Shown: positions 1-41,943 of the stretch, one piece after another | Layout: each line of letters opens with the position of its first letter | Numbering within the stretch: position 1 is the stretch's first letter | Source: Nymphaea colorata | Lineage: Eukaryota; Streptophyta; Magnoliopsida; Nymphaeales; Nymphaeaceae | Reading direction: 5' to 3' | Assembly (NCBI RefSeq): GCF_008831285.2 | Contig: NC_045146.1 | Coordinates: 1 to 64,000 of the forward strand | Length of the DNA: 64,000 nt | Made by a program: the position numbers and the translations under genes | Notes under the pieces: model-generated | The model's database searches: none | What the model was told of the DNA's origin: nothing | Seen by the model: the letters and a program-made list of their open reading frames with translations, nothing else

Positions 1-654
1 AAGAGTAATCTTGAATCCCGGTTGTTTTCAATGTTAAAGAGGCATTTTAGCCATTTTGAACACAAAACAGCAACCAACTTCAAAACAGTAACTTTGATAC
101 TTTTCTAAATTATGCTTCTTGTGGAAGGGCTGAAATAATACAGGAACATTGGATCAGTCGGGGTCAACATTGTCCAGACCTTTAGTTGCATGCAATCCCA
201 CTGAATCAATCAATCTGTTAGGTGAAAATAAAATAGGCAGATAAAATATGCCATTTGATTTTTTTATTATTTTTCTATGAATTTATTTTATTAGATATAT
301 GTATTCCAAGATTGAGATAACTCAAAAAATTGAGTCACTCTCTTTGGAAAGGCATCGAATAAAGAGATTAAAAAAAGTTCCATTATTGCTTCTCTCAACA
401 CACATATATATATATATATATATAATTTAGATAATCCATTTAAAACAGTTTAAGCAGATGAATGATTGAGAAAAAAAATGTAAACTAATATTAGATGACA
501 AAAATGTCCATGATATATTTTTCTCTTAACCATCTATCATGTTTGATCACAGTCCTGATTAGATGCTAGGTGACTCTTAGAATCACATTCTTTTTTTTCT
601 CTCTATATATAACATGTCTCTTTTTCATATTATAAAAAAAGAGACACCCAAAAC

Positions 655-695
<41 letters not shown>

Positions 696-1060
696 TATAA
701 TATATATATATATAAAGAGAGAGAGAGAGAAGCTCATTTTTTTTTGTGTCGTTTTAATTTTAATACAAACATCCAATAAAAGAAATTCATTGAAAAAGTG
801 CACAAATACAAATGACGTGTTTTATCAGCCTACCTTGTTTTAGCCCAACCCATTGGTTGATTTAGTGTGAGTGCGATCAATATTCATGCATTATTTCAAC
901 CCTTCCATAAAACGCATAATTTAGGAACAAACAATGCCTACTCTACTGTCCAAGAAGCTCGTTGCTATCTTTGTGACTTAAAATGACTAAAATGCCCTTA
1001 ACGTTGAAACCAACAACGGTCTTCAGAAGTGAACCAACGTGGTTGCGATGTTGGGGGCTC
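1..1060. mobile_element. Inverted-repeat (fold-back) element at the arm tip
   Basis: Positions about 10-330 read as an imperfect reverse complement of about 750-1045. Matching parts include the segment with GGCATTTTAGCCATTTTG, the AAATTATGC...GGAAGGG.TGAAATAAT segment and the ATAAAA...GTCATTTG segment. The loop holds AT-rich sequence and a TA/GA microsatellite. There is no coding capacity, so it fits a non-autonomous element with long terminal inverted repeats. The mirrored copy is at about 24040-25088; a partial copy opens the third arm segment. The element may extend left of the window, and I could not define a target duplication. Confidence 0.55.
655..731. repeat. TA then GA microsatellite
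   Basis: A long TA dinucleotide tract is followed by a GA tract. The counterpart in the right arm (24359-24428) differs in length and purity, as expected for replication slippage after duplication. Confidence 0.9.
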
Positions 1061-1979
1061 AACCGCTTAAGGTCAAGAAAAGCAACGACACCCTCCCCCT
1101 TTTCCTCTGAAGGGCAAAAATGGAAAAGTGATGTTTTTGGGGTCAAAGGACGAAGATACCCCTCCACCACTCATAAAGGCAACTTAGTTTGTTGCTTGGT
1201 GCTGATCAACTGCTGCTATGGATGATCACTTCCCATATTGAATATTCTTTTCTGTGTGAAAATGTCCAAAATTTTATTCATGTATTTGCATTGGAGAGTG
1301 TTCGTTATGTATTACGTACGAAATCAACTTAGTTCCCAAGATTTTAGGAGCAAATTAAAATGACAATAAAAATTATAAACAAAGAGAAGGGAAAATTAAA
1401 CTTACATGAAGAAAAAATGCGGGATGCACAGGCATGGTACCGAAATATATATTCAAACTTTTTGAATCCATGGTTGAATGTTTAAGAAAAATCCAAACAC
1501 ATCCATAATAAATTTCCGAATGGTTGTATGTAAGATTCAATTTCTCACTGGATCTAGTTACATAATAAAGAATTTGAACTCGATTTTGTTACATTTTGTT
1601 AGTCGATTAATACCAGACAGCTACATCTATTGTGTACATTTTCTTTCCCTTTTTCCGACTTTCTTTTTTTATACGAGTACGATCTGCGAAGAGGTATTCA
1701 CTAATATTTTTGAGCTTTTGATTTTTCAATATACATGAAATTAAGCTGACACAAATTTCCTAGAAGCAGCTTGAAATCCACTCTTGTCATCCAAATGACC
1801 ACGTTTAAAAAGTAAAATTCATCGACCATTTATTTCAAGGTTTCCGTGTTCGAGTTAAAGCCCAACCAATTTTTCGTTCATGCTCATGGTTAGTTGTAGG
1901 TTCAAATCTGGTTCCCATAGCAACCAATTTTTCTTGTCAAGTTCTTGGCCGTGATGGGCGGGATCCGATAACTTTCAAA

Positions 1980-2640
1980 TGAAAAGGCGGCAGTTGAAAG
2001 TGGCGGTTGCACCCAACCAACTGCAAATGATCTCGATGATCATGCTTATCCTTTACATGAACAAATTTATAAATAGGAGACGATTCCGATGGTTGGGTGA
2101 TGAGAAATTGAACGAGGCATTTCAGCGAAGAAGAGATTACCCGTTCTTCTCTCAAAGGTGTCTGAATCTCTCCTTCCTTGAGAGGTTACCAGCCTATCGA
2201 GCGATCCCCAGTCGCGTCCATCCTCACCTTCTCTTCCGCTACAAAGCTAAGGTAAATGATCTGAATCTTTATATTGTGCCATCGAAAAGAAGTATGTGAT
2301 GCATGTGCGGAATAGGTTTGAAAACCAACATTGGTATCAGAGCAAGATTTACAGTCTTTTCATTTAATGGCCGGATTGCACCTTTTTTCATTGTTACGCC
2401 TCTCGGTTTCGGCGTACAGGGCGGTTTGCCCTGCTGTTACTGTTTGGAGGGCCGGAATCCCTCTTCCTACAGCATCTAAAGATCAAACAGAATAAAATAA
2501 AAAGGAAGAAAGGGGTGAGTAGAGGGTCAAACGCATACTGCACAGGAGGACACCGGAATCTGTCGCCGGTGGTTGTGTCCTCTCTTGCAGGCAGCAAGAA
2601 TGGCAGAGTAGCAGGTTTTCTGCCCAAATGAGGTTGCTTA
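1980..2640 (+). mobile_element. LTR-like module 1 with primer-binding-site sequence
   Basis: Contains a TATA-like TTATAAATAGG near 2067. About 260 bp later comes AACA followed by TTGGTATCAGAGCAAG at about 2328. TGGTATCAGAGC is the usual plant retrotransposon primer-binding site for initiator tRNA-Met, and the preceding CA fits an LTR end. A purine-rich stretch (AAAAGGAAGAAAGGGG) lies near 2500. The module is followed directly by a second copy. This fits a short non-autonomous LTR element (TRIM or similar), but I could not find LTR starts or a target duplication. Mirrored copy: about 22450-23110. Confidence 0.5.
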
Positions 2641-3250
2641 TCCCTCCAACTGCAAATGAGCTCGATGATCATCCAAATGATCATGCTTATCCTTTACATG
2701 AACAAATTTATAATAGGAGACGATTCCGATGGTTGGGTGATGAGAAATCGAACGAGGCATTTCATCAAAGAAGAGATTACCCGCTCTTCTCTCAAAGGTG
2801 TCTGAATCTCTCCTTCCTTGAGAGGTTACGAGCCTATCGAGCGATCCCCAGTCGCGTCCATCCTCACCTTCTCTTCCGCTACAAAGCTAAGGTAAATGAT
2901 CTGAATCTTTATATTGTGCCATCGAAAAGAAGTATGTGATGCATGTGCGGAATAGGTATGGAAAACCCAAGATTCGTATCAGAGCAAGATTTACAGTCTT
3001 CTCCGGCAATGGCTGGATTCCACCGTTTTTTCATTGTTACGCCTCTCGGTTTCGGCGTACAGGGCCGTTTGCCCTGCTTACTGTTTGGAGGGCAGGAATC
3101 CCTATTCCTACAGCATCTAAAGATCAAACAGAATAAAATAAACAGGAAGAAAGGGTGGGTGGAGGGTCAAACGCATACTGCACAGGAGGCCACCGGACTC
3201 TGTCGCCGGTGGCTGGGTCCTCTCTTGCAGGCAGCAAGAATGGCAGAGTA
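2640..3250 (+). mobile_element. LTR-like module 2, tandem copy of module 1
   Basis: Repeats module 1 in the same order: the AATAGGAGACGATTCCGATG segment, the ...GTGATGCATGTGCGGAATAGGT segment, then a decayed primer-binding site (TTCGTATCAGAGCAAG at about 2972), the palindromic GCCTCTCGGTTTCGGCGTAC part and the AGGCAGCAAGAATGGCAGAG end. Mirrored copy about 21830-22450. The third arm copy has one module only (about 43650-44340), with the same decayed site. Open frames of up to ~160 codons here shift between copies and look incidental. Confidence 0.5.
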
Positions 3251-5430
3251 GCACTGTAGCAGGTTTGCTGCCGTTTTGTTCTTTTTATTACTATTATGTT
3301 TTTTGGTTCTTGCGGGCCGCTTTCGCCTACTCCCTCTTCCTTTACTTTGTTTCGGATTTCGTGTGTATATTATTATATCATTGTTTCTTGGTTTTTTACC
3401 CAATTTAATTAATTTGTCTTCTAATTAAATATTACGACATAGATTTGCTAACATTTGGTTTCAGATCCATATTCTTATTCAAGTCTGATGTGCGATCCAT
3501 TTAAAAAATTGGATGTAGATTAAATAGATTACATTTTTTTCATCCTGTTAGACTTATTCTCTTTACATGATGATGATCCCGGTACGAATACAACTTGTTT
3601 TGAATCACGATTAGTGTTCAGGGATCATAATTTGAATCCACGATCATAACTTGAATTCTTTTGTGGCATATCAATTTATAATGGGCGTCACATATTGATG
3701 CATTGGATCTGCAACTTTGGATCTTGTTTTACTTGAAGATTCATTTCTGTTAATTTCATTCTTCATTTAGATCCATGTTTATGATCCAAATGAAGTTATT
3801 ATCTAAATTACATCCGTAGACCCAAAGATGTTCAGAGTCCAAACTTGGCCTCGATATGAAGACCAGCACAGCATGAGATTTGGTTTCATGCCCAACTGGT
3901 CCATAGTGAATTGAACATTTTTGGAAATGGGGATGTCTTCATAAATGCCTGAATGTTCTCCTACACGAAGAATAGTCTCTTTTCAAGGAGATGTATTATA
4001 AAAAACATGGCAGTGGCCTCGTCTTCTCTGAAATGCAAATTTTCAATCTGACATTGTGGTGCAACTCTAATTCATGATGCAGTCTACCTTTCTATTACAT
4101 AATTTTATGGTTATCTGAGCTATTGCTAGCCAACCAGTCTACTAAGAAAGACATGGAATACATCTTGAGTGCTATTCATAATCTTTTTTAAAAAAAAAAA
4201 ATTGTAGTTCATCGGCTTAATCATCAGATCTGGCATCCTAACTAGTGGAGTTGATTGTCCAGATTTAATGCAATTAAGCATTGCTGCATGCACCTGGGAT
4301 CAGGAAAATTGTCTCAAAGTCTACATCCAAGTTGTTTCAGGTGCATATGGCACGTTCTCCTTACCATCATACTCCTCTTAGCTTGGTCATCTCTTATTAT
4401 GCTTGGAGATTAGGTAAGGATGCTTTTGAAGAGTGTGTGACTATCTAGGTAGATCCAAACAGGTACGTATATGACTGTCTTTGTCTAATCTATGAATTGC
4501 AGTTTTGGTTTTATTTACTGGGTGCTTTTGTTTAGATGTGAAATTTTTGCACTAGAGAGATTTCTGCGCTGGGAATTTGCTGTTGCCAGAGTTTTTCTAT
4601 GTTGGTCTTCAAAAAGTGTGTGTGCAGGTTGTGTTGCAGTACAAGGAATGAAGGAATGCTTTCTGCAGATTAATATTTCTCCCTCTTTTATCTACTTTTC
4701 TAATTACTCTCTTTTTTGAAACTGCTTTTTCTCCTTTACAGCATCTTTTCTTTCTCTTTGTGTATTTGAATAGTTTGACACTCGTCTTTTTAGCTTATCA
4801 TTTTTCATATATTATCTTGTATCTGTAGTTAAGATGATAGGGGACATGGTCTGAATCCATTGGTAGTTACGCGATGAGAGCATTTGGTACAAATTCATCG
4901 ATTTTCTGTCCAGTTTTAGTTGAAATCAAGATGTAATTTCTGCCTTTCAAAGTCCAACTTCTTTTGAACACTTGTTTGCAGAAGGTTTGTAGGTCTTGAG
5001 CTCATGGGTCAATTGTCTATAGGTGTTGGATTATGTGTGCCACTTGGATTATGTTTGCCAGTAACACTGAGGTGGATTTGTAAAACTCCATCAGAACTGA
5101 CCGCTGCTTGTTAGCAGCAGTGAAAACTTTGTTGAGGAACTCACTCAGGATTCATTCTGGCCATTCTTAGTAGTAGGGGTGGATCTCCCTAAGTAGTATA
5201 TAATTTATAGAATTTTCATTGGGACCTTATGAAAGTTTTTTAGAAATGTTATGTAGTACATATTTTGTTTTTCAGGCACCAAAGGGCTATGGCCCCCTAG
5301 CTCTGCCTTGCATAGTAAATTGATTGGCCAACTATGTCACATGGGGAGTGGGGGTACAGGTGCAAAGCAATTTTGAATGTGGATATATGGACACACATGG
5401 AACATTGATTTTTTCGATGATTTAGAGGAA
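3250..5430 (+). other. Non-coding body of the arm, resembling a decayed transcription unit
   Basis: No frame is conserved between copies. A short segment at 4342-4415 is bounded by a CAG acceptor-like and a GTAAGG donor-like site and stays open in the third copy, but I recognise no protein. Much of 3950-5150 is homologous, with many changes, to the - strand of 32780-34000. That implies an older shared locus rather than a simple transposon. Around 5160-5300 there is a GGCCCCCTAGCTCTGCC motif typical of common plant interspersed repeats. Confidence 0.4.
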
Positions 5431-5501
5431 TCTGGCGTCTCTCACACAAAACCTAATATAATGCATTGAGCTGCATGTGTGAGAGGCCAGATGTATATAT
5501 A

Positions 5502-7743
5502 TTAGCTTCTATCAGTTTGTAAGAGTAGTATTTTCAAACTGCAGAGAGACAACCTTTAGAGCAGTACACATATAGCATTGACTACCATATACCCTCATGT
5601 GTACTTACTACTTGTGCACAAAAAAGTCGTATCATAAACATACTCATGCAATCATGCACACTGATGTTAGGGTGTAGCCAGAGGGAGTCAGTAGAGCCAT
5701 GGCCCTCCTCAAATTTTAAAGAGAAAGAATTCACACCCAAACAAAATTGTGGATATACCAACAGATGCTGGCTATATATATTTGTGAATAATATGAATAT
5801 GCTATTAATACAAATATGCCCTTTATCAGTTTTTTTCAGGCAAATGGTACAAAAATGCAAATGATATGTTGTTTTATAATTTTTGTGTACATCAATATGT
5901 ATAGGGATATGATTTTTTGTCCACTGCTTTGGAAGATAGTCACTCTGCAGTTTCCACATGCTGCTACTTTAAAATAATAGGCACTGAATGGTTTAATTTT
6001 GAAGTGTGAACTGTTTATTATGTCTCCTGAAATTGCTCTGCACCTGTGTCCACACTTGCGCCCCTACTTGCCTTCATTCCCAAACTTATGTCATAGGCAT
6101 TTGAAGTAAAACTGAGGCACATCAATTGCTGGTTCAAACTTAAATCATCGAATGTAGTAATACCTTAAAAATCAAATTACCAGTGGAAACCAATTGTTCC
6201 ATCCTTGGCATCTCGAGAACACTAATCAAACAACCTATAATGTCTCATAAGTCTCCCACTTACCAAGTGCCTGATTCTTTTATGCAGCCAAACTTTAGGC
6301 TCTAGTTTTCTCCATTAGTTATATATGATATATCACCAAGAAAAATTTAAAGAAATTATAGCTTGTCACTATTTGATATGAATAAGATTTTCCAACACTT
6401 TTTTGCCTAGGTTATTGCCAATAAGTTTTTCATAAATATTAATATTATATTATTTTCATCACCAGTATTAGGGCCAACTCTGATTTTTAGCACTAATATC
6501 ATTGCCACTATTGCTACTACTATCACCATTATATTGTTGAACCTCAATGATTATTAGTATTATTATTGCTATCACTTTCACCCCCACTACCACGGTCAAC
6601 AATAACAATAACTCTTTAAATAAATGCTAACTTTATTTTTTTATTTTTTGTCAAAAAACAGTTAATTAAAAGAGCTCTCTCAAAATCTCTAATGTGATCT
6701 ACATGTGTCTAGTGTCTAAATTACACATTATTGCCTTTGTTGTTGATTTTTCACTCCTTGTGTCTGCCTAATTTATGAAAAATTTATTCGCAATAACCTA
6801 TGAAAAAGTGTTATATTAAATAGCCACAAGCAATAATTTTTTTTAAATTTTCCTTTGTGATATATCATATATAACTAATAGAGAAAACTAGAGCTTGAAG
6901 TTTGGCTGCATAAAAAAGAATCAGGCACTTGGTCGGCGGGAGACTTATGGGAGACACTACAGTTTGTTTGATTAGTGTTTTCGAGATGCTAAGGATGGAA
7001 CAATTGGTCTCCATTGGTAATTTGATTTTTAATATATTACTGCACTCAATGTTTTAAGTTTGAACCAGCAATTGATGTGCCTTGGTTTTACCTCATTAGG
7101 TTAGATACAAGTGCATAGCAATTTGAGGAGACACAATAAACAATTTATACTTCAAAATTAAACCATTTAGTGCCTATTATTTTAAAGTAGCAACATGTGC
7201 AAACTGCACAGTGACTATCTTCCAAGGCAGTGCACATATAGTATATCACCATGCACACTCACTTGTATTTGTGCACAAAAAATCATATGCCTATACATAT
7301 TGATGTACACAAAAATTGTAAAACAGCTTATCATTTGCATTTTTTGTACCATTTGCCTGGAAAAACTGATAAAGGGCATATTCGTATCCATAGCATATTC
7401 ATGTTATTCACAAATATATATGGCTTGTATTTGTGGGTGGATCCACAATTTTTTTGCACAAATATATATATAGCCAACATCTGTTGATGGATCCACAATT
7501 TTGCTTGGGGCCAATCGAAATTTTTTAAGATATAAGGATGTGAATTCTTTCTCTTTAAAATTTGAGGAGGGTCATGGCCCTGCTGGCTACACTCTGACAT
7601 CAGTGTGCTTGAGTATGTTTATGAATACGACTTTTTGTGCATAAGTAGTAAGTACACATGAGTGTATATGGTAGTCTATGTTATATGTGCACTGCTCTAA
7701 AGGTTGTCCCTGTGCAGTTTGAAAATACTACTCTTACAAACTG
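5502..7743. mobile_element. Fold-back transposon with ~0.95 kb terminal inverted repeats, left copy
   Basis: The first ~930 bp (CAGTTTGTAAGAGTAGTATT inwards to about 6435) are the imperfect reverse complement of about 6775-7743, leaving a ~340 bp loop. The loop holds ATT/ATC-rich low-complexity sequence and no open frame, so the element is non-autonomous. The right end has lost a few terminal bases compared with the other two copies. Superfamily is uncertain: 8-bp flanking repeats at the third copy would fit hAT or Mutator-like elements. Confidence 0.75.
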
Positions 7744-8230
7744 AATTGGTTGCTACTCAGTGAAGTGAAATCCCTTATTGCTTGACACTGGGAAGAAGAG
7801 GAGTGTTCAAAAAATGTTTAGATATTCTAGGTGGCATATGGTCTCTTCCTGTCACCATCATGTTCTTCTCAGACTAGGTGCATGTCCTATTTTGCTTAGG
7901 CATGGTGCAAACACATTTTAAATAGAATGGGCATCTATTATCTATTCAAGTTCTTGAGGACTATGTTGTTTTAATTCAATTTTAAATTTGTCCTGGATGA
8001 TTGTCTTGGCAGAAAACATGTCCATGGACAGTTTTTTTTCATACGAGTTGCTCGACGTTTCCATTTAGCAGCTTATTGTGGCAGGTATAGAAGAAGTTAA
8101 TAATAAGCAAGGAAATAAGAGAAAGCACCCTTGCTTTTTGCTTGTGGCTACCTGGTTTTGCTGGTCAGCCACGTTGATGTTCTCTTTCTTGGATGTGGCT
8201 GTGGCCAATGCACTGAACAGTAGGAAAAAA

Positions 8231-9190
8231 GTTTTTAACTCCGCCATTGGTTCAGGTTTTACTTTACCAATGCCAGTCCCAAGCCTGGATAAAGGAGGAG
8301 GGTTTAAGTGTCCATTTCTAATTGCCTAAAGTGGTTTGAGATGAGGTCGCTCCCTGACTGGGTGACCCAGCAACATGAAACATTATATATATGTGGTCCC
8401 ATCAAAGTTCTGTTTACTAAGAAGAGTTCACTGATGACTAGATAAGGAGCTTTTGTGGCTGGGCAACCTGTGAAATGCTTTCATGGGAGTGTTTTCTTTT
8501 CTTTTTCTTCTTTTTTTTTTCTTTCCCCTATCACCTGATCTATCTCATCGAAGGATACCTCAGCTCTAACCAGCTGGAGAGATTAACATGGAATGGAGGA
8601 AATAGCGAAGATATTACCAGAGCCTCTATTCTGGATCATATAAAAGCTAGAGGCCTAGCTGAACCTTGGCATGAAGGGGGTATGGCTAACAAAGAGCTGT
8701 CCTGAAGCAAACTGCACGCTCTATGTGGGAGTAGAAGGTTGTTAACTTACTGAAGACAGGTTGAAGAGACTTGGATTAGCATGGCTTCAGGCTGCATTTT
8801 ATGTGGAAAAGCAGAGGAGGATGAGTGTTCTGTTCTTTAAATGCCCCATGTGCCAAAGCATTTGCAGGAGAAGAGTTACTAAATATGGGAAGAAGAGTGC
8901 CCAAGGGAGGCCTTATAAAGGTACTTCAATGATGGAGCAGGAAGAAGATTAGAAACACAGTCCTTCAAAAATGGTGGAAGAATTGTTTCCATGCTGCCAT
9001 TGGGCACATCTGGAAACTGAGGAATGGTATAAAGCATGGCAAGATCAGTAAGTTGTGCAATGAAGCAGATGTTTGCTGGAAGACATGCATGGAAATTATT
9101 GTGGCGCAGGACTGGAGAGAAGAGCACAGGGATCTAACCTGCTGGATTGCCACTGGTATTATTTGAAGAGCACAGGGAAACGATGAAGTC
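8231..9190 (+). mobile_element. LINE 3'-end remnant, left-arm copy
   Basis: Read across frames, 8740-8890 gives LTEDRLKRLGL, then C-I-L-C-G-K-A-E-E-D-E-C, then LFFKCPMCQSI. This is the zinc-binding region found at the C-terminus of plant LINE reverse transcriptases (zf-RVT, with C-x2-C and HLFF-x-C patterns). It is followed near 8965-9035 by a tryptophan-rich IWKLRNGIKH block, the counterpart of the IW..RN motif downstream in these proteins. At least two frameshifts separate these blocks and a stop lies upstream, so it is a dead fragment. The RT domain proper is absent. Confidence 0.7.
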
Positions 9191-9339
9191 TGCGTCCTCC
9201 CCAATTTTTAAAGCCATTGGTTGGGAGTGCCAATTTGGCATGGGAAGTGATGCGCAAGGATCCCAAGTTACGTTGGGGCATGGGAATGGCGACAGTGCAG
9301 CTTCAGCTTGCTGTTGCATCATACCGTTTATGACTTAGG

Positions 9340-9429
9340 GTTTTAGCACACTGAGTTGACGACCCAACTCTCATTGAGGTTGTCCAGGTTCGGCAGTTAT
9401 TATTTCTCCCGAAAATTTGTTGTTTTTTC

Positions 9430-9462
<33 letters not shown>

Positions 9463-10270
9463 GGTTTAGAAAGGTACTAAGATAATGGGTTCATGATCCC
9501 CGTTTCCTGCTTTAAGGGAATACTTTTGCAACATTCTTGGAAGATGTTGATGGCTTATGTTCAAGCATTAAGTTTTTGGTAATCTAACTTTTGATTACAA
9601 GTTATGCCTTTAGAGTATGTCTTTAATGACCAATACCAAGATATCCAAACATTTCCATTAATGTGGAGGCAAGGACAATGTAGTTTAGATGGTTGGATTA
9701 ATATGCTAAATAATTAAAATTGGCAAAGACACATTGTGACCACCTTCATTGCCACAGCAAGCTAATTAAATTTATAGGATTTTGCCTCAACAGGGACAAC
9801 ATGGTTGGACAGGGAACGTGTAAACCGTTCCTGCTTCGATTCCTGTGGGCATCGTGTGGTTGTTATCGTCCTAAAAATTTATAAAATTTTATCTATCATT
9901 TTTTGCATTTTTTATTTACAACAATCATTTGAACAGATTCTTTCTGATCGATCGCCTTCGATGCGATAATGACAGTATTGATCACAATAATATTAAATAC
10001 AAGCAGTTGTGAACATCGGGCCGAATCGGTCTCTTGTGGACAACCGAGTCGGTTCACCGGCTGATACATGGTAGCACGTTATTCATTACTTTACTAATTA
10101 CTAATTTAAATTAATCTTATATTTCTTTACATCTTTCAGTAATATCGCAATATATATATATATATATATAAAATCAGTTGATGACGAATTAATATATAAA
10201 AAATAAAAAGTACTTAAAGGTGACATGTGGCGTTCTTGATTAAGGTCGATCCACTGTCTCCTAATACACA
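9340..10270. other. Intergenic stretch, nothing recognised
   Basis: AT-rich. It contains a pyrimidine run (about 9424-9462), a TA microsatellite near 10150 and no conserved open frame. The match to the arm copies ends near 9190. I see no gene here. Confidence 0.5.
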
Positions 10271-10615
10271 ATTGACATGCGTATCGGCCGATGCACGTTC
10301 TTACTGGCAACATTTAGTTTTTTCCTCCCCTGCTCTCACCTTGGGATGCACAAAACCGACTCAGATTGCATTTATAAGATGTTAATTTGTTCTAGGAGGC
10401 ATTTGATTTGTTGTCATTATAATCGTACGCGTACCGACTTGGTGCATGTACTCTTCTGCTCAGGCACGGTGCAAACACAACTGTCCTTTTGTTGGTTTAG
10501 TATCAAATGCATGGTGTCAACTGTTAGCAGTTAAGTTTGATTCTGCATTGGCATTGAAATTAAGTTTATGGTTATTTTAAGAGTCAATTTCTTTTCGTTT
10601 AAGTTTTGATGTTTG

Positions 10616-10913
10616 TTCTTGTAAGTTGAGCAGGGTTAGTGCAAGGATGTGTGCTTGTTGGATTATGATTGACAGGATTAAAGTGGACTAGAATGGATTT
10701 TAGATTCAGTTAGTTTGTGAATTAGCTGAGCGCTGCTCAGTTTTCCTTTCCTTTTATTTTTTTTATATTCTCTAGTTCTCCTTTGTTTCCTCTTTATTTG
10801 TTGGAAGCATTTATGATTTTGCTGCTCGGTTCTCCTTTCTTTTTCCTTTTTATGGTTTATCTTCCCTTCTCATCTCCCTTTTGATCAGCTTTAATTCTTT
10901 CCCTGGTTTATAC
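10616..10913 (+). repeat. Direct repeat upstream of the kinase exon (intron-derived)
   Basis: Begins TTCTTGTAAGTTGAGCAG and ends CCCTGGTTTATAC. It is repeated with a few differences at 11482-11780, directly after the kinase exon. Both begin with an intact GTAAGT donor. The repeat therefore looks like the exon's own intron, present on both sides. A single copy without any exon lies inverted at about 30720-31025. Confidence 0.85.
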
Positions 10914-10928
10914 TCTGTTCTGTTTCAG

Positions 10929-11486
10929 ATACTTGCTTTAACAAAACTGAGACATCCACACCTTGTCACATTAATTGGTGCTTGTTCTGAAGAACATTGC
11001 CTTGTCTATGAGCTCTTAATAAATGGAAGCCTAGAGGATCGTCTCTTCGGCAATCATAAAGAGCAGCTATTTTGGTGGAAAGATCGACTTCGAGTAGCAG
11101 TGGAGGTTTGCTTGGGGCTTCTTTTTCTTCATTCCAATTCTATGGTACATGGTGATGTGAAGCCTGCAAACATCTTGCTAGATGCTAACAACAAGGCCAA
11201 GATTGCAGATTTTGGGATTTGTTGGTTTCTCCCCAAGCCTCAAAGGGAGTCCACTAGCACAGTTTGTAAATACACTGACCCAAGGGGAACCAAGGTGTAC
11301 ATGGACCCCGAGTTCATGAGCTCTGGAAAATTGACATACAAGTCTGATGTTTATGCATTTGGTATCATTCTTATGCAATTACTCACCAAAAAACCTGGTT
11401 TTGGATTGCCAAGTGAAGTTGGAAAAGCTTTGAATAGCAGTGCATTACACAAAATGTTAGATCATGATCCAGGAAACTGGCTTCTT
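10929..11486 (+). pseudogene. Isolated protein-kinase exon of a U-box (PUB33-like) kinase gene
   Basis: The exon is bounded by TTTCAG at 10928 and GTAAGT at 11487 and is 558 nt, exactly 186 codons in one phase. It encodes the middle of a Ser/Thr kinase: RHPHLVTLIGAC (residues 8-19), the catalytic loop VHGDVKPAN (73-81, HGD rather than HRD), DFG (94-96), MDPE of the activation segment (125-128) and SDVYAFG (139-145). The HGD-VKP loop and the T-D-P-x-G-T-x-x-Y-M-D-P-E-F stretch are typical of plant U-box kinases of the PUB32-35/PUB50s class. The glycine loop, catalytic lysine, C-lobe end and U-box are not found within several kb on either side. The frame is intact, so it may be a single exon of a rearranged gene or a captured exon. 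As a working gene it looks incomplete. An alternative is another receptor-like cytoplasmic kinase; I favour the U-box class. Confidence 0.75.
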
Positions 11487-11780
11487 GTAAGTTGAGCAGG
11501 GTTAGTTCAATGGTGTGTGCTTGTTGGATTATGATTGACAGGATTAAAGTGGACTAGAACGGATTTTAAATTCAGTTAGTTTGTGAATTAGCTGAGCGCT
11601 GCTCAGTTTACCTTTCCTTTTAATTTTTTTATCATCTCTAGTTCTCCTTCGTTTCCTCTTTATTTGTTGGAGGCATTTACGATTTTGCTGCTCGGTTCAC
11701 CTTTCTTTTTCCTTTTTATGGTTTATCTTCCCTTCTCATTCTCGCTTTTGAGCAACTTTAATTCTTTCCCTGGTTTATAC
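11482..11780 (+). repeat. Direct repeat downstream of the kinase exon (intron-derived)
   Basis: Second copy of the sequence at 10616-10913. After it the sequence runs into CTGCAAACGTCATTG, which in the inverted counterpart directly follows the single repeat copy. This layout would allow deletion of the exon by recombination between repeats. Confidence 0.85.
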
Positions 11781-13849: not shown

Positions 13850-14325
13850 TACACGCTTTCCGTGTGCAAGAGAACCTACGCGAGAGGTTTGAGTTCTCGT
13901 GCTGTAGGGGACCTGCAGTTCTGCCGGCCAGGAATTTCGTCATCGCAGACTACTGCCCTTCGAGCTCAGGTTGGATGCTCGAGCTTGTGGGTGCCCGGCT
14001 TCAAACACAACATCTACGCGCAACCCTGCCACATGTGGTTGATGGTCGTCACGTCTTCCCCGAAGGCATTCGAACCGTCGCGAATATCCTCACGAGCTTG
14101 CCGGAGACATCTGCCTGCAACCAGAGACTTCGACGTTTCAGGGGGACGGCTGGGCGGAGGTGTAACTGGTGAGATTAAAGGGCCGTCATCCCGCCATGGC
14201 GACTGGGAAAGTGAGCAGTGCCTGAGCACCGACCATCCCTGGCCCACCGAGGACGATAGGAATTGGAAGGGAGGAAGGCGCCGAGTTGGGGAAGGTCCTC
14301 GCAGTGGTCGAAGGATGTACACAAT
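13850..14325. other. GC-rich segment of unknown origin
   Basis: About 470 bp markedly richer in GC and CpG than everything around it. It is open in three overlapping frames (up to 161 codons on + from 13862, 102 codons on - at 14014-14322). None resembles a family I recognise and no copy exists elsewhere in the window. It sits exactly between the end of the 10.3-13.6 kb segment and a rearranged arm piece, so it could be a captured gene or organelle fragment. Open frames may reflect base composition only. Confidence 0.35.
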
Positions 14326-15170
14326 TGATGTAGCTATCTGGTATTAATCGACTAACTAATTGTAACAAAACCGAGTTCAAATTTTTTCTTATGTAACTGG
14401 ATCCGTGAGAAATTGAATCTTGCATACATCCATTGAGAAATTTATTATGGATGCGTTTGGATTTTTCTTATCATTCAATCAACTGGATTCAAAAAGTTTG
14501 AATCTTACATACATGCCTCCTAGGTACCATGCCTATGTATATCCCACTTTTTTTTCTTCATGCAAGTTTAATTTTTCCTTCTTTTTTTGCCTTCTCTTTG
14601 ATTATAAATTTTAGTGTCACATCCTATTTAATTTTGTTCCTAAAATAATGGGAAGTAAGTTGATTCCGTACCATTTTATTCCGAACACTCTCCAATGCGA
14701 ATATATGAATAAAATTTTGGACATTTTCTAGCTCCAGTTCAGAAAAGATCATCCACTATGGTAAGTGATCATCTATAGCAACAGTTGATCAGCACCAAGC
14801 AAACAAAGTAAGTTGCCTTTAACGGGGCAAACACTCACATCAATTGTATACATTTTCGCCAACTTTTTGCGACTTTCTTTTTTTTTATACGAGTCCGATC
14901 TTCGAAAGAGGTATTCACTAATATTTTTGATCTTTTGATTTTTCAATATACATGAAAATGAAGGTGACAATAATTTCCTAGAAGCAGTTTGAAAAATGAA
15001 AACCACTGTTGTCATCCAAATGACGACCTTTAAAAAGTCAAATCCAGGGTCTCCTAATTATATGAAGCAAGCACGTCAGCATTTGCGCCATCCATCGACT
15101 ATTTATTTCAAAGTTTCCTTGTTGGTTCCCGGGACTTCTATTGATTGCTTGTCATGGATGTGCAATAATT
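14326..15170. repeat. Rearranged arm pieces meeting head to head
   Basis: 14326-14815 matches the right-arm orientation (about 23450-23900), while 14826-15165 matches the opposite orientation (about 42845-43135, and 1630-1850 of the left arm). The two pieces abut near 14820. In the arms these segments are adjacent in one orientation, so an inversion or template switch created this junction. Confidence 0.7.
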
Positions 15171-15283
15171 GGAATGTGGACCAGGCAAAACCAAGACCAG
15201 CCAGAAACAATGGTGCTTTGTCTGCAAAAGCAGAGGAAAGTTCAGTTAGATAAAGGGTTGGATTTAAGATTTTCAAGCTGGAG

Positions 15284-15415
15284 AAAATAGAGATTGATGA
15301 ATATCTTGCTATAATCTGGTGCCCATAGGCACAAGCCAGCCCACTGATAAAAATAGAGATTGATGAATATCTTGCTATAATCTGGTGCCCATAGGCACAA
15401 GCCAGCCCACTGATA
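15284..15415 (+). repeat. 66-bp tandem duplication
   Basis: Two essentially identical 66-bp units (15284-15349 and 15350-15415), each containing GGTGCCCATAGGCACAAGCC. The embedded GTGCCCATAGGCAC is an imperfect palindrome. Confidence 0.9.
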
Positions 15416-15419
15416 ATTA

Positions 15420-16030
15420 ATGAGAAATAGGAGGAGGATCTTCTCAATTAAGTGCACCTAAGAATCCATACTTACTATTGGCTTCCTAGAATCTATTTTC
15501 AGGTGTGGCAATATAATAGTTTTCAAAAGAGTGGATTTGAGCAGCAGGCAGCAGCAATTCAAATTCGCAGATCTGAGATTCTCGATGATCTCATATCATC
15601 ATCTTCACAAACCTCAAATCCGAAGTAAACACATATGGCCTCAGTTCATTCAGTAGCCTTTCTTTTTCGTTTTCGTAAGAAGGAATTACATCGGGCAGTG
15701 AGACTTAGTTCACTTGCTGTATTGTAAAACTCCATGGCATGCTTAAACTTGCGCAGAGGGGTAGCTCTTATGAGTTTACTTTGAAGCCTAATCGTTCTTA
15801 TGGTAGTCAAAGCCTTAGAGGTATCATCATGTGTTTCAAGATACATTTATACTTTCTCTTGCTAAATTGTGAATTTCATTGCTTGATTTATGGGGGGATA
15901 CCCAGAAGAGGCTGAAACCTCTTTCCTTGTCTCTAGGGTTCATGCATACTTGAAGACCTGGGTGAGGAGCAGGACTATCATCAATTACAGTGTTGCAGAT
16001 TCATCATTTGTAGTTGAGGGCAATAGTACC
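15420..16030. other. Spacer between duplicated segments, nothing recognised
   Basis: Unique sequence with no conserved open frame. It ends where the right arm begins. Confidence 0.4.
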
Positions 16031-16620
16031 CATGCTTTATACCATTCCTCAGTTTCCAGATGTGCCCTATGGCAGCATGGAAACAATTCTTCCACCATTT
16101 TTGAAGAACTGGGTTTCTAATCTTCTTCCTGCTCCGTCATTGAAGTACCTTTATAAGGCCTCCCTTAGGCACTCTTCTTCCCAGATTTAATAACTCTTCT
16201 CCTCCAAATGCTTTGGCAGATGGGGCATTTAAAGAACAGATAACACTCATCCTCCTCTGCTTTTCCACATAAACTGCAGCCTGAAGCCATGCTAATCCAA
16301 GTCTCTTCAACCTGTCTTCAGTAAGTAAACAGCCTTCTTCTCCCACATAGAGCGTGCAGTTTGCTTCAGGACAGCTCTTTGTTAGCCATACCCCCTTCAT
16401 GCCAAGGATCAGCTAGGCCTCTAGCTTTTATATGATCCAGAATAGAGGCTCTGGTAATATCTTCGCTATTTCCTCCATTCCATGTTAATCTCTCCTGCTG
16501 GTTAGAGCTGAGGTATCCTTCGATGAGATAGATCAGGTGATTGGGGAAAGAAAAAAAAAAGAAGAAAAAGAAAAGAAAAACACTCCCATGAGAGCATTTC
16601 ACAGGTTGCCCAGCCACAAA
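16030..16620 (-). mobile_element. LINE 3'-end remnant, right-arm copy
   Basis: Mirrored copy of the left-arm LINE fragment. On the - strand it reads CTLYVGEEGCLLTEDRLKRL in one open frame, slightly better preserved than the left copy at this point. The zinc-binding blocks still fall in different frames. It is truncated at 16032, where the inverted-repeat match ends. Confidence 0.65.
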
Positions 16621-19600
16621 AGCTCCTTATCTAGTCATCGGTGAACTCTTCTTAGTAAACAGAACTTTGATGGGACCAGATATATATAATGTTTCATGTT
16701 GCGGGGTCACCCAGTCAGGGAGCGACCTCATCTCAAACCACTTTAGGCAATTAGAAATGGACACTTAAACCCTCCTCCTTTATCCAGGCTTGGGACTGGC
16801 ATTGGTAAAGTAAAACCTGAACCAATGGCGGAGTTAAAAACTTTTTTCCTACTGTTCAATGCATTGGCCACAGCCACTTCCAAGAAAGAGAACATCAACG
16901 TGGCTGACCAGCAAAACCAGGTAGCCACAAGCAAAAACCAAGGGTGCTTTCTCTTATTTCCATGCTTATTATTAACTTCTTCTATACCTGCCACAATAAG
17001 CTGCTAAATGGAAACGTCGAGCAACTGGTATAAAAGAAAACTGTCCATGGACATGTTTTCTACCAAGACAATCATCCAGGACAAATTTAAAATTGAATTA
17101 AAACAACATAGTCCTCAAGAACTTGAATAGATAATAGATGCCCATTCTATTTAAAATGTGTTTGCACCATGCCTAAGCAAAATAGGACATGCACCTAGTC
17201 TGAGAAGAACATGATGGTGACAGGAAGAGACCATATGCCACCTAGAATATCTAAACATTTTTTGAACACTCCTCTTCTTCCCAGTGTCAAGCAATAAGGG
17301 ATTTCACTTCACTGAGTAGCAAGCAATTCAGTTTGTAAGAGTAGTATTTTCAAACTGCACAGGGACAACCTTTAGAGCAGTGCACATATAACATAGACTA
17401 CCATATACACTCATGTGTACTTACTACTTATGCACAAAAAGTCGTATTCATAAACATACTCAAGCACACTGATGTCAGAGTGTAGCCAGCAGGGCCATGA
17501 CCCTCCTCAAATTTTAAAGAGAAAGAATTCACATCCTTATATCTTAAAAAATTTCGATTGGCCCCAAGCAAAATTGTGGATCCATCAACAGATGTTGGCT
17601 ATATATATATTTGTGCAAAAAAATTGTGGATCCACCCACAAATACAAGCCATATATATTTGTGAATAACATGAATATGCTATGGATACGAATATGCCCTT
17701 TATCAGTTTTTCCAGGCAAATGGTACAAAAAATGCAAATGATAAGCTGTTTTACAATTTTTGTGTACATCAATATGTATAGGCATATGATTTTTTGTGCA
17801 CAAATACAAGTGAGTGTGCATGGTGATATACTATATGTGCACTGCCTTGGAAGATAGTCACTGTGCAGTTTGCACATGTTGCTACTTTAAAATAATAGGC
17901 ACTAAATGGTTTAATTTTGAAGTATAAATTGTTTATTGTGTCTCCTCAAATTGCTATGCACTTGTATCTAACCTAATGAGGTAAAACCAAGGCACATCAA
18001 TTGCTGGTTCAAACTTAAAACATTGAGTGCAGTAATATATTAAAAATCAAATTACCAATGGAGACCAATTGTTCCATCCTTAGCATCTCGGAAACACTAA
18101 TCAAACAAACTGTAGTGTCTCCCATAAGTCTCCCGCCAACCAAGTGCCTGATTCTTTTTTATGCAGCCAAACTTCAAGCTCTAGTTTTCTCTATTAGTTA
18201 TATATGATATATCACAAAGGAAAATTTAAAAAAATTATAGCTTGTGGCTATTTAATATAACACTTTTTCATAGGTTATTGCCAATAAATTTTTCATAAAT
18301 TAGGCAGACACAAGGAGTGAAAAATCAACAACAAAGGCAATAATGTGTAATTTAGACACTAGACACATGTAGATCACATTAGAGATTTTGAGAGAGCTCT
18401 TTTAATTAACTGTTTTTTGACAAAAAATAGAAAAAATAAAGTTAGCATTTATTTAAAGAGTTATTGTTATTGTTGACCGTGGTAGTGGGGGTGAAAGTGA
18501 TAGCAATAATAATACTAATAATCATTGAGGTTCAACAATATAATGGTGATAGTAGTAGCAATAGTGGCAATGATATTAGTGCTAAAAATCAGAGTTGGCC
18601 CTAATACTGGTGATGAAAATAATATAATATTAATATTTATGAAAAACTTATTGGCAATAACCTAGGCAAAAAAGTGTTGGAAAATCTTATTCATATCAAA
18701 TAGTGACAAGCTATAATTTCTTTAAATTTTTCTTGGTGATATATCATATATAACTAATGGAGAAAACTAGAGCCTAAAGTTTGGCTGCATAAAAGAATCA
18801 GGCACTTGGTAAGTGGGAGACTTATGAGACATTATAGGTTGTTTGATTAGTGTTCTCGAGATGCCAAGGATGGAACAATTGGTTTCCACTGGTAATTTGA
18901 TTTTTAAGGTATTACTACATTCGATGATTTAAGTTTGAACCAGCAATTGATGTGCCTCAGTTTTACTTCAAATGCCTATTACATAAGTTTGGGAATGAAG
19001 GCAAGTAGGGGCGCAAGTGTGGACACAGGTGCAGAGCAATTTCAGGAGACATAATAAACAGTTCACACTTCAAAATTAAACCATTCAGTGCCTATTATTT
19101 TATAGTAGCAGCATGTGGAAACTGCAGAGTGACTATCTTCCAAAGCAGTGGACAAAAAATCATGTCCTATACATATTGATGTACACAAAAATTATAAAAC
19201 AACATATCATTTGCATTTTTTGTACCATTTGCCTGAAAAAAAAACTGATAAAGGGCATATTTGTATTAATAGCATATTCATATTATTCACAAATATATAT
19301 AGCGAGCATCTGTTGGTAGATCCACAATTTTGTTTGGGTGTGAATTCTTTCTCTTTAAAATTTGAGGAGGGCCATGGCTCTGCAGGCTCCCCCTGGCTAC
19401 ACCCTAACATCAGTGTGCATGATTGCATGAGTATGTTTACGATACGACTTTTTTGTGCACAAGTAGTAAGTACACATGAGTGTATATGGTATTCAATGCT
19501 ATATGTGTACTGCTCTAAAGGTTGTCTCTGTGCAGTTTGAAAATACTACTCTTACAAACTGATAGAAGCTAATATATATACATCTGGCCTCTCACACATG

Positions 19601-22600
19601 CAGCTCAATGCATTATATTAGGTTTTGTGTGAGAGACGCCAGATTCCTCTAAATCATCGAAAAAAACAATGTTCCATGTGTGTCCATATATCCACATTCA
19701 AAATTGCTTTGCACTTGTACCCCCACTCCCCATGTGACATAGTTGGCCAATCAATTTACTATGCAAGGGCAGAGCTAGGGGGCCATAGCCCTTTGGTGCC
19801 TGAAAAACAAAATATGTACTACATAACATTTCTAAAAAACTTTCATAAGGACCCAATGAAAATTCTATAAATTATATACTACTTAGGGAGATCCACCCCT
19901 ACTACTAAGAATGGCCAGAATGAATCCTGAGTGAGTTCCTCAACAAAGTTTTCACTGCTGCTAACAAGCAGCGGTCAGTTCTGATGGAGTTTTACAAATC
20001 CACCTCAGTGTTACTGGCAAACATAATCCAAGTGGCACACATAATCCAACAACTATAGACAATTGACCCATGAGCTCAAGACCTACAAACCTTCTGCAAA
20101 CAAGTGTTCAAAAGAAGTTGGACTTTGAAAGGCAGAAATTACATCTTGATTTCAACTAAAACTGGATAGAAAATCGATGAATTTGTACCAAATGCTCTCA
20201 TCGCCTAACTACCAATGGATTCAGACCATGTCCCCTATCATCTTAACTACAGATACAAGATAATATATGAAAAATGATAAGCTAAAAAGACGAGTGTCAA
20301 ACTATTCAAATACACAAAGAGAAAGAAAAGATGCTGTAAAGGAGAAAAAGCAGTTTCAAAAAAGAGAGTAATTAGAAAAGTAGATAAAAGAGGGAGAAAT
20401 ATTAATCTGCAGAAAGCATTCCTTCATTCCTTGTACTGCAACACAACCTGCACACACACTTTTTGAAGACCAACATAGAAAAACTCTGGCAACAGCAAAT
20501 TCCCAGCGCAGAAATCTCTCTAGTGCAAAAATTTCACATCTAAACAAAAGCACCCAGTAAATAAAACCAAAACTGCAATTCATAGATTAGACAAAGACAG
20601 TCATATACGTACCTGTTTGGATCTACCTAGATAGTCACACACTCTTCAAAAGCATCCTTACCTAATCTCCAAGCATAATAAGAGATGACCAAGCTAAGAG
20701 GAGTATGATGGTAAGGAGAACGTGCCATATGCACCTGAAACAACTTGGATGTAGACTTTGAGACAATTTTCCTGATCCCAGGTGCATGCAGCAATGCTTA
20801 ATTGCATTAAATCTGGACAATCAACTCCACTAGTTAGGATGCCAGATCTGATGATTAAGCCGATGAACTACAATTTTTTTTTTTTTAAAAAAGATTATGA
20901 ATAGCACTCAAGATGTATTCCATGTCTTTCTTAGTAGACTGGTTGGCTAGCAATAGCTCAGATAACCATAAAATTATGTAATAGAAAGGTAGACTGCATC
21001 ATGAATTAGAGTTGCACCACAATGTCAGATTGCAAATTTGCATTTCAGAGAAGACGAGGCCACTGCCATGTTTTTTATAATACATCTCCTTGAAAAGAGA
21101 CTATTCTTCGTGTAGGAGAACATTCAGGCATTTATGAAGACATCCCCATTTCCAAAAATGTTCAATTCACTATGGACCAGTTGGGCATGAAACCAAATCT
21201 CATGCTGTGCTGGTCTTCATATCGAGGCCAAGTTTGGACTCTGAACATCTTTGGGTCTACGGATGTAATTTAGATAATAACTTCATTTGGATCATAAACA
21301 TGGATCTAAATGAAGAATGAAATTAACAGAAATGAATCTTCAAGTAAAACAAGATCCAAAGTTGCAGATCCAATGCATCAATATGTGACGCCCATTATAA
21401 ATTGATATGCCACAAAAGAATTCAAGTTATGATCGTGGATTCAAATTATGATCCCTGAACACTAATCGTGATTCAAAACAAGTTGTATTCGTACCGGGAT
21501 CATCATCATGTAAAGAGAATAAGTCTAACAGGATGAAAAAAATGTAATCTATTTAATCTACATCCAATTTTTTAAATGGATCGCACATCAGACTTGAATA
21601 AGAATATGGATCTGAAACCAAATGTTAGCAAATCTATGTCGTAATATTTAATTAGAAGACAAATTAATTAAATTGGGTAAAAAACCAAGAAACAATGATA
21701 TAATAATATACACACGAAATCCGAAACAAAGTAAAGGAAGAGGGAGTAGGCGAAAGCGGCCCGCAAGAACCAAAAAAACATAATAGTAATAAAAAGAACA
21801 AAACGGCAGCAAACCTGCTACAGTGCTACTCTGCCATTCTTGCTGCCTGCAAGAGAGGACCCAGCCACCGGCGACAGAGTCCGGTGGCCTCCTGTGCAGT
21901 ATGCGTTTGACCCTCCACCCACCCCTTTCTTCCTGTTTATTTTATTCTGTTTGATCTTTAGATGCTGTAGGAATAGGGATTCCTGCCCTCCAAACAGTAA
22001 GCAGGGCAAACGGCCCTGTACGCCGAAACCGAGAGGCGTAACAATGAAAAAACGGTGGAATCCAGCCATTGCCGGAGAAGACTGTAAATCTTGCTCTGAT
22101 ACGAATCTTGGGTTTTCCATACCTATTCCGCACATGCATCACATACTTCTTTTCGATGGCACAATATAAAGATTCAGATCATTTACCTTAGCTTTGTAGC
22201 GGAAGAGAAGGTGAGGATGGACGCGACTGGGGATCGCTCGATAGGCTCGTAACCTCTCAAGGAAGGAGAGATTCAGACACCTTTGAGAGAAGAGCGGGTA
22301 ATCTCTTCTTTGATGAAATGCCTCGTTCGATTTCTCATCACCCAACCATCGGAATCGTCTCCTATTTATAAATTTGTTCATGTAAAGGATAAGCATGATC
22401 ATTTGGATGATCATCGAGCTCATTTGCAGTTGGAGGGATAAGCAACCTCATTTGGGCAGAAAACCTGCTACTCTGCCATTCTTGCTGCCTGCAAGAGAGG
22501 ACACAACCACCGGCGACAGATTCCGGTGTCCTCCTGTGCAGTATGCGTTTGACCCTCTACTCACCCCTTTCTTCCTTTTTATTTTATTCTGTTTGATCTT

Positions 22601-24365
22601 TAGATGCTGTAGGAAGAGGGATTCCGGCCCTCCAAACAGTAACAGCAGGGCAAACCGCCCTGTACGCCGAAACCGAGAGGCGTAACAATGAAAAAAAGGT
22701 GCAATCCGGCCATTAAATGAAAAGACTGTAAATCTTGCTCTGATACCAATGTTGGTTTTCAAACCTATTCCGCACATGCATCACATACTTCTTTTCGATG
22801 GCACAATATAAAGATTCAGATCATTTACCTTAGCTTTGTAGCGGAAGAGAAGGTGAGGATGGACGCGACTGGGGATCGCTCGATAGGCTGGTAACCTCTC
22901 AAGGAAGGAGAGATTCAGACACCTTTGAGAGAAGAACGGGTAATCTCTTCTTCGCTGAAATGCCTCGTTCAATTTCTCATCACCCAACCATCGGAATCGT
23001 CTCCTATTTATAAATTTGTTCATGTAAAGGATAAGCATGATCATCGAGATCATTTGCAGTTGGTTGGGTGCAACCGCCACTTTCAACTGCCGCCTTTTCA
23101 TTTGAAAGTTATCGGATCCCGCCCATCACGGCCAAGAACTTGACAAGAAAAATTGGTTGCTATGGGAACCAGATTTGAACCTACAACTAACCATGAGCAT
23201 GAACGAAAAATTGGTTGGGCTTTAACTCGAACACGGAAACCTTGAAATAAATGGTCGATGAATTTTACTTTTTAAACGTGGTCATTTGGATGACAAGAGT
23301 GGATTTCAAGCTGCTTCTAGGAAATTTGTGTCAGCTTAATTTTCATGTATATTGAAAAATCAAAAGCTCAAAAATATTAGTGAATACCTCTTTCGCAGAT
23401 CGTACTCGTATAAAAAAAGAAAGTCGGAAAAAGGGAAAGAAAATGTACACAATAGATGTAGCTGTCTGGTATTAATCGACTAACAAAATGTAACAAAATC
23501 GAGTTCAAATTCTTTATTATGTAACTAGATCCAGTGAGAAATTGAATCTTACATACAACCATTCGGAAATTTATTATGGATGTGTTTGGATTTTTCTTAA
23601 ACATTCAACCATGGATTCAAAAAGTTTGAATATATATTTCGGTACCATGCCTGTGCATCCCGCATTTTTTCTTCATGTAAGTTTAATTTTCCCTTCTCTT
23701 TGTTTATAATTTTTATTGTCATTTTAATTTGCTCCTAAAATCTTGGGAACTAAGTTGATTTCGTACGTAATACATAACGAACACTCTCCAATGCAAATAC
23801 ATGAATAAAATTTTGGACATTTTCACACAGAAAAGAATATTCAATATGGGAAGTGATCATCCATAGCAGCAGTTGATCAGCACCAAGCAAACAAACTAAG
23901 TTGCCTTTATGAGTGGTGGAGGGGTATCTTCGTCCTTTGACCCCAAAAACATCACTTTTCCATTTTTGCCCTTCAGAGGAAAAGGGGGAGGGTGTCGTTG
24001 CTTTTCTTGACCTTAAGCGGTTGAGCCCCCAACATCGCAACCACGTTGGTTCACTTCTGAAGACCGTTGTTGGTTTCAACGTTAAGGGCATTTTAGTCAT
24101 TTTAAGTCACAAAGATAGCAACGAGCTTCTTGGACAGTAGAGTAGGCATTGTTTTGTTCCTAAATTATGCGTTTTATGGAAGGGTTGAAATAATGCATGA
24201 ATATTGATCGCACTCACACTAAATCAACCAATGGGTTGGGCTAAAACAAGGTAGGCTGATAAAACACGTCATTTGTATTTGTGCACTTTTTCAATGAATT
24301 TCTTTTATTGGATGTTTGTATTAAAATTAAAACGACACAAAAAAAATGAGCTTCTCTCTCTCTCT

Positions 24366-24431
<66 letters not shown>

Positions 24432-25088
24432 GTTTTTGGGTGTCTTCTTTTTTATAATATGAAAAAGAGACATGGTTATATATAGAGAGAAAAAAAAAGA
24501 ATGGTGATTCTAAGAGTCACCTAGCCATCTAATCAGGACTGTGATCAAACATGATAGATGGTTAAGAGAAAAATATATCATGGACATTTTTGTCATCTAA
24601 TATTAGTTTACATTTTTTTTCTCAATCATTCATCTGCTTAAACTGTTTTAAATGGATTATCTAAATTATATATATATATATATATATGTGTGTTGAGAGA
24701 AGCAATAATGGAACTTTTTTTAATCTCTTTATTCGATGCCTTTCCAAAGAGAGTGACTCAATTTTTTGAGTTATCTCAATCTTGGAATACATATATCTAA
24801 TAAAATAAATTCATAGAAAAATAATAAAAAAATCAAATGGCATATTTTATCTGCCTATTTTATTTTCACCTAACAGATTGATTGATTCAGTGGGATTGCA
24901 TGCAACTAAAGGTCTGGACAATGTTGACCCCGACTGATCCAATGTTCCTGTATTATTTCAGCCCTTCCACAAGAAGCATAATTTAGAAAAGTATCAAAGT
25001 TACTGTTTTGAAGTTGGTTGCTGTTTTGTGTTCAAAATGGCTAAAATGCCTCTTTAACATTGAAAACAACCGGGATTCAAGATTACTC
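16032..25088 (-). repeat. Right arm of the ~9 kb inverted repeat
   Basis: Reverse-complement copy of the left arm. It carries the same components mirrored: LINE remnant about 16030-16620, fold-back element 17329-19572, two LTR-like modules about 21830-23110, and the outer inverted-repeat element about 24040-25088. The fold-back element here keeps the outer terminal bases (GATAGAAGCTAA after 19560) that the left copy lost near 7743. The right arm is therefore not simply a later copy of the present left arm; both descend from a common source. Confidence 0.9.
17329..19572. mobile_element. Fold-back transposon, right-arm copy
   Basis: Mirrored copy of 5502-7743 inside the right arm. It shares the same truncated end (now at 17329) and keeps the complete outer bases at the other end (to 19572). 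Since both arms share the truncation, the element was already present and damaged before the inverted duplication. Confidence 0.75.
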
Positions 25089-25089
25089 G

Positions 25090-26048: not shown

Positions 26049-26092
<44 letters not shown>
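26049..26092 (+). repeat. AG microsatellite
   Basis: About 22 AG dinucleotides in a row. The equivalent place in the second tandem unit (about 27576-27590) has only a short AG run, showing recent expansion here. Confidence 0.95.
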
Positions 26093-26095
<3 letters not shown>

Positions 26096-34941: not shown

Positions 34942-34988
<47 letters not shown>

Positions 34989-35020: not shown

Positions 35021-35024
35021 CTAA

Positions 35025-41939: not shown

Positions 41940-41943
41940 TTTT

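Follow-up and report, generated by a model that had tools for sequence, protein, structure and literature searches.

A putative, partly homogenised inverted segmental duplication with ~22-kb arms in Nymphaea colorata

The first 64,000 bases of the sequence C9 (NC_045146.1) of Nymphaea colorata carry a large inverted repeat in which two long arms flank a loop. Is this palindrome a genuine feature of the genome or a product of its assembly? The stretch that was analysed, termed here the window, is C9:1-64000, with window base 1 corresponding to C9 base 1 in a sequence of 25,178,754 bases, and contains no N. An earlier note on this DNA had described a near-identical and young 9-kb inverted repeat in a plant accessory region and had raised the doubt of an assembly artefact. 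The analysis points instead to a probable genuine inverted segmental duplication with ~22-kb arms and a 7-kb spacer that resides in a local cluster of duplicated units and is neither a mobile element nor a haplotype fold-over. The structure is taken as a probably real inverted segmental duplication that would later have been partly homogenised.

Comparison of the window with itself by BLASTN matched positions 16030-25088 with the inverse of 9039-3 over 9062 columns with 99.084% identity, 55 mismatches and 26 gap openings. The longest exact inverted match between these 9-kb arms was 767 bp. Thus, the arm-to-arm alignment that the note had proposed as a check bore out the 9-kb inverted repeat: two long arms lie in opposite orientation with match lengths and identity that are far beyond chance. 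The inner ends of the arms are unequal, as had also been noted: the left arm and a third, older copy are alike up to positions 9165 and 50374, respectively, whereas the right arm ends at 16030. The principal elements are as follows.

3..9039, plus strand: the part of the left arm within the window, truncated by the contig start; its outward continuation probably lies in C9:19785583-19798327
9040..16029, no strand: the spacer (loop) of ~7.0 kb, in which homology to the third copy persists over 9040-9165
16030..38296, minus strand: the right arm at its full extent of 22.3 kb, as compared with the left arm plus C9:19785583-19798327, with a break in homology at 35513-37284
41861..50374, plus strand: the third, older arm copy in direct orientation to the left arm, which served as outgroup

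A tandem duplication of 580 bp is present within the arm (window 2036-2613 and 2677-3253, 94.5% identity); both arms possess it and the third copy matches with one stretch. The ascription to an accessory region was unsupported as the window opens a sequence of 25.2 Mb. Tandem TTTAGGG (two or more units) was absent from the window even though the latter begins C9, and a tRNA scan of the window found nothing. A mir-1277 match at 41641 (33.7 bits against a cut-off of 81) overlaps a TA repeat and was judged to be due to chance.

The left arm does not end where the window does. Window 3-6773 recurs in direct orientation at C9:19798328-19805102 with 4 mismatches and 36 gap openings over 6792 columns in BLAST, and this distant copy abuts a gap of 100 N at 19805103-19805202. 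The window left arm, the distant copy and the right arm were compared in a three-way MAFFT alignment. The right arm possessed 20 private substitutions and 5 private indel columns at which the two other copies agree, whereas 9 substitutions and 19 indel columns were private to the window left arm, with 24 of the 28 being at 564-3298, close to where the contig begins. The distant copy had 6 private substitutions and 17 private indel columns of which 20 of 23 fell at window positions 4000-5536, towards the end of that contig, and two columns differed three ways. The differences between the arms are unevenly spread and include those peculiar to the left arm, which, being near the contig start, look like consensus errors. 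Because both copies share all 20 substitutions that separate them from the right arm, and because their own differences cluster towards contig ends, window 3-6773 and C9:19798328-19805102 would represent a single locus at which overlapping contig ends were left unmerged. Base 3, given in the note, is not the end of the arm as homology carries on in the other contig: C9:19785583-19798327 is the inverse of window 38296-25089, beyond which homology stops. Between C9:19785583-19805102 and the inverse of window 18298-38303, uninterrupted identity extended over 2742 bp at most. When the contigs are joined, the left arm measures ~21.8 kb, the right arm 22.3 kb and the spacer 7.0 kb. The placement, at sites 19.8 Mb apart on C9, of two contig ends with a 6.8-kb overlap is a probable assembly error. 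Beyond the gap, the next contig had no other long match for its first 1500 bases and so gave no hint of the true position of the window's contig. The suspicion of an artefact was right in a different sense: an unmerged overlap plus misplacement appears to be present, but this fault would truncate the palindrome in the window and not create it.

The divergence between the arms is mosaic. In right-arm coordinates, three blocks were distinguished.

16030..20205, minus strand: inner arm block, 52 substitutions in 4168 aligned bases (1.25%)
20206..29090, minus strand: near-identical tract, a candidate gene-conversion tract, 7 substitutions in 8866 aligned bases (0.08%)
29091..34999, minus strand: outer arm block, 249 substitutions in 5852 aligned bases (4.26%), with large indels

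Fisher tests among these three blocks yielded p < 1e-18 for each pair. The block counts leave out the left-arm substitutions at 560-3300 except 640 and 641 (9 substitutions, private to the contig start). The block figures also leave out 35000-37239 where an insertion confined to the right arm prevents a reliable alignment (107 differences in 818 aligned bases in the 35- and 36-kb bins). Further outwards, 37240-38303 showed 43 substitutions in 1008 aligned bases (4.27%), and the outer blocks carry several indels of at least 100 bp. The near-identical tract has edges at 20205 and 29091, the outer of which is sharper: no substitutions were present between 27940 and 29091, followed by dozens up to 30 kb. 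Divergence was uneven inside the blocks as well, with values per kb of 2.5%, 0.5%, 0.5% and 1.5% from 16 to 20 kb, and a descent from 7.6% at 29 kb to 1.0% at 34 kb. The palindrome is young in part, namely over the 8.9 kb with 0.08% divergence.

The third copy provides an external reference for the inner arm, where 398 of 5375 compared sites set it apart from both arms. At the 53 differences between the arms inward of position 3500, one of which (4043) falls in the tract, the third copy agreed with the left arm 26 times, with the right arm 21 times and with neither five times, and had a gap at the remaining site. As the third copy sides with each arm at some differences, both arms changed independently, and in the inner block each possesses its own derived changes. 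Sequencing error was rejected as the origin of the differences between the arms in view of these derived changes and of the 20 right-arm-private substitutions at which two contigs agree against the right arm.

The best reading of this mosaic, as judged from the alignments, is an older inverted duplication plus recent conversion of the 8.9-kb tract. In this scheme, repair or copying of a stretch ending at 16029 would have been diverted when synthesis switched at a short homology to the opposite strand at ~9039; synthesis would then have run back through the arm and beyond to leave an inverted copy past the 7-kb loop. Subsequently, the arms may have paired such that one overwrote the 8.9-kb middle of the other by gene conversion, and the middle would be near-identical, in contrast to the older inner and outer differences, because conversion covered the middle only. 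Finally, the assembler may have failed to pass the left arm so that one contig ends and the next begins there, with scaffolding having set the two 19.8 Mb apart. The published Nymphaea colorata assembly comprises 409 Mb in 804 scaffolds and 14 pseudo-chromosomes, and was produced from 49.8 Gb of PacBio RSII data in 5.5 million reads with Canu, Arrow, Pilon and Lachesis. These values correspond to a mean read length of ~9 kb, which is near to the length of the putative conversion tract.

Two further elements lie at the inner junction and in the loop.

15152..16032, plus strand: right end of the loop, 88-95% like C1:16479666-16480820, with homology that reaches the inner junction
10776..11492, plus strand: loop frame with a partial protein kinase domain (Pfam PF00069, E 1.4e-32), a single exon-like piece

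At the inner joint, the C1-like sequence and the arm have ~5 bases in common with one mismatch, as assessed by eye. This microhomology fits either end joining or a replication template switch, but is weak evidence by itself. The kinase piece lies between direct repeats of 302 bp (10616-10917 and 11482-11783, 94% identity), whereas the arm copies match this repeat once and do not match the kinase piece. The piece was lost from the arms, perhaps by recombination between the repeats, or was gained in the loop. Similarity of the loop copy is 96.8% to the left outer arm and 93.4% to the right, and that between the outer arms is 94.1%.

These last values, together with the presence of partial units of several ages, the distance of the third copy from both arms and the unevenness of divergence within blocks, would also suit a real palindrome that was built as a mosaic by several duplication steps of differing age with no gene conversion. 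This alternative is considered unlikely. Old, younger and very young duplications would all need to have kept one register and one inverted order, and divergence jumps abruptly at 29091 from 0.08% to several percent.

A chimeric contig that joined two haplotypes or two paralogous loci head to head is an explanation in which we place still less belief. The locus apparently was mishandled by assembly, and the window opens at a contig start inside an arm and displays contig-end differences. However, alleles would have common outer flanks, whereas the flanks beyond 38296 and C9:19785583 were unmatched except for a twister ribozyme core and one match of 163 columns when C9:19760001-19785583 was compared with the window plus 20 kb. 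The arms therefore are viewed as non-allelic, with the comparison for 38304-41860 being with the other contig alone. Genome-wide searches covered 407,766,735 bases in 783 contigs. Window 50700-58700 had no second full-length match among 49 matches, those other than itself being no longer than 509 bp (40 of 142 candidates scored). Likewise, C9:19780001-19785560 had no second full-length match among 17 matches, with non-self matches of up to about 110 bp (15 of 15 candidates scored). The inner ends are likewise dissimilar, and the agreement of the third copy with the left junction supports the proposal in the note that unequal ends speak against a simple fold-over. Moreover, the outer blocks are 4.3% apart with large indels, and the related sequence in the loop and the third copy at 41861-50374 show that local duplication occurred anyway. 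A simple haplotype fold-over was rejected as the flanks of the arms differ and those searched lack a second full copy.

The search with inner arm 6900-9165 recovered a near-full match in the right arm, the third copy at 86-88%, and partial matches at 78% on C14 and C6. Window 1-1000 matched three C9 copies at 99-100% and others that were weaker or short (40 of 799 candidates scored). These searches with parts of the arm revealed no further haplotype of them. The C14:4896636 and C6:21945243 regions, both ~78% like the inner arm, are mutually 100% identical after rounding over ~1.28 kb, and reflect either a recent copy or an assembly duplicate.

Several observations weigh against a genuine, partly converted inverted duplication. 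The basis for placing both arms on one molecule is one gap-free assembled contig that holds both inner arms, and a chimeric join at the inner junction, 16030, is conceivable. For the outermost right-arm flank, 38304-41860, the comparison extended to the other contig only. The overlapping contig ends differ by 15 substitutions in MAFFT in comparison with 4 in BLAST, the count depending on gap placement, and the misplaced contig could be either of the two. With 0.5-2.5% per kb in the inner block and 1.0-7.6% in the outer block, the history is not a clean two-step one, and mosaic identity can arise from several duplications of differing age.

The possibility that the inverted duplication is transcribed into a hairpin that feeds production of small interfering RNAs (siRNAs) is compatible with the preferred explanation, but is judged improbable. 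The geometry permits a long duplex with a 7-kb loop, and natural plant cases are described for the soybean I locus (PMC3804491) and maize Mu killer (PMC3440606). No intact conserved gene was recognised in the scanned frames of the arms. The right arm contains the following stretch.

35513..37284, plus strand: stretch in the right arm only with a frame of long interspersed nuclear element (LINE) type, zf-RVT at 35765-36265 (E 4.2e-12)

The left-arm counterpart of this stretch is 452 bp that BLAST left unaligned. A decayed zf-RVT remnant below the Pfam cut-off is present at the inner arm end at 16168-16317 (E 2.8e-4), with an equivalent in the third copy at 49994-50131 (E 0.0063). Apart from the LINE-type zf-RVT and this remnant, no scanned arm frame gave a Pfam match at E < 0.001, and because of this no obvious gene target for silencing is visible in the arms, as far as translated frames reveal. 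The first scan comprised 102 selected frames, two of them added from the third copy; the source list held 162 frames of at least 66 amino acids from parts other than the right 9-kb arm and the third copy, and a letter-by-letter check located 92 of the 102 scanned frames among the 162. Fifteen of the 29 left-arm frames were included in that scan, and the other 14 were added later with 13 further right-arm frames to give 129 translated frames in total; three frames of the right 9-kb arm were scanned as such. Beside the kinase piece of the loop and one zf-RVT, the 102 frames gave weak matches only, namely ABC1 and Kinase-like on the kinase frame, and Zn_ribbon_GRF_2, E1-E2_ATPase and DUF6713 at E 0.007-0.0095. 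CCDC106 (E 0.0042) was the single weak match in the later scan of 27 frames.

A large transposable element with terminal inverted repeats of 9 or 22 kb is hardly credible and was rejected: although two inverted arms flank a loop, no target-site duplication was evident at the outer ends when the junctions were compared by eye, no transposase family was present among Pfam matches of the 129 translated frames, and near-full copies in genome queries with window 1-1000 and 6900-9165 were confined to C9.

The inverted segmental duplication favoured here is a further example of an already known kind of structure. The W palindromes of Salix purpurea likewise possess ~20-kb arms, a short spacer and a neighbouring extra partial copy, and combine high identity with lower-identity parts and indels for which conversion was invoked (PMC7023750). 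However, the Salix palindromes are gene-bearing and located in the sex-determining region (PMC7023750), whereas no intact arm gene was recognised here and there is no known sex link. Palindrome P6 of the human Y chromosome similarly has inverted arms, with conversion tracts of multiple kilobases, but arm similarity in human Y palindromes is given as above 99.9% (PMC3723533), a level found here over the 8.9-kb tract only. The CHS1-3-4 cluster of the soybean I locus is a natural plant inverted repeat cluster of 27 kb with assembly gaps and inter-repeat recombination, but it contains CHS genes and has demonstrated siRNAs (PMC3804491, PMC6710647), whereas siRNA production from the present locus would be hypothetical. 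Maize Mu killer also is a partial inverted duplication, with a proposed hairpin RNA of ~4 kb; in distinction to the Nymphaea locus, it derives from one transposase gene and silencing of the target was shown (PMC3440606). Literature on 'Nymphaea' and 'palindrome' consisted, among the papers listed, of organelle genome papers as judged by title. If correct, the interpretation adds a mosaic palindrome with no known sex link to plant cases, of which the willow W example is sex-chromosomal, and marks a concrete fault, two contig ends that belong together but lie 19.8 Mb apart, in an assembly that is probably the reference for an early-diverging flowering plant.

The window also contains a cluster of seven matches to the twister-P1 ribozyme in Rfam.

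8232..8306, plus strand: twister-P1 match
13500..13571, plus strand: twister-P1 match
16766..16840, minus strand: twister-P1 match
26634..26708, minus strand: twister-P1 match
28975..29049, minus strand: twister-P1 match
38397..38470, minus strand: twister-P1 match
49444..49518, plus strand: twister-P1 match

The E-values of these matches ranged up to 2.1e-5. Two of the seven (68.4 bits) exceeded the gathering score of 67.2 bits for RF03160, and the other five scored 40.4-65.7. The genome contained at least 17 matches, a lower bound as 61 of 18198 first-look candidates were scored: seven in the window, six at C9:19.737-19.797 Mb, two on C13, and one each on C6 and C14. Four of these 17 surpassed the gathering score. 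No twister-P1 match was present in any of 14 control genomes of unspecified kind. The location of 13 of the 17 listed matches at the two C9 places supports the joining of the latter and their being neighbours. Some of the 13 are due to duplication of the arms, whereas the palindrome does not include those at 19.737, 19.760 and 19.784 Mb. The six matches at 19.737-19.797 Mb are on the plus strand, as are the two in the left arm and loop and the one in the third copy; the four at 16766-38470 are on the minus strand.

An alignment of 10 of the 17 matches, with one for each near-identical group and a partial match left out, showed that a core of ~67 bp is alike between copies whose flanks differ. 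This pattern suggests that the ribozyme is under selection or that the core has moved. In most window copies, the outermost P1 pairs appear weak by reading of the alignment, so that any self-cleavage is putative. There is a slim chance that the palindrome with 22-kb arms and no known sex link is kept alike by ongoing conversion within a directional cluster of twisters that cut the transcripts of the units, including the hairpin. No paper was found that joins 'twister ribozyme' with 'Nymphaea'. On C13, two twister-bearing copies at 6720312 and 6726142 are 5.8 kb apart and 99% alike over ~760 bp, and nearby C13:6727080-6727588 is 70% like window 51172-51669.

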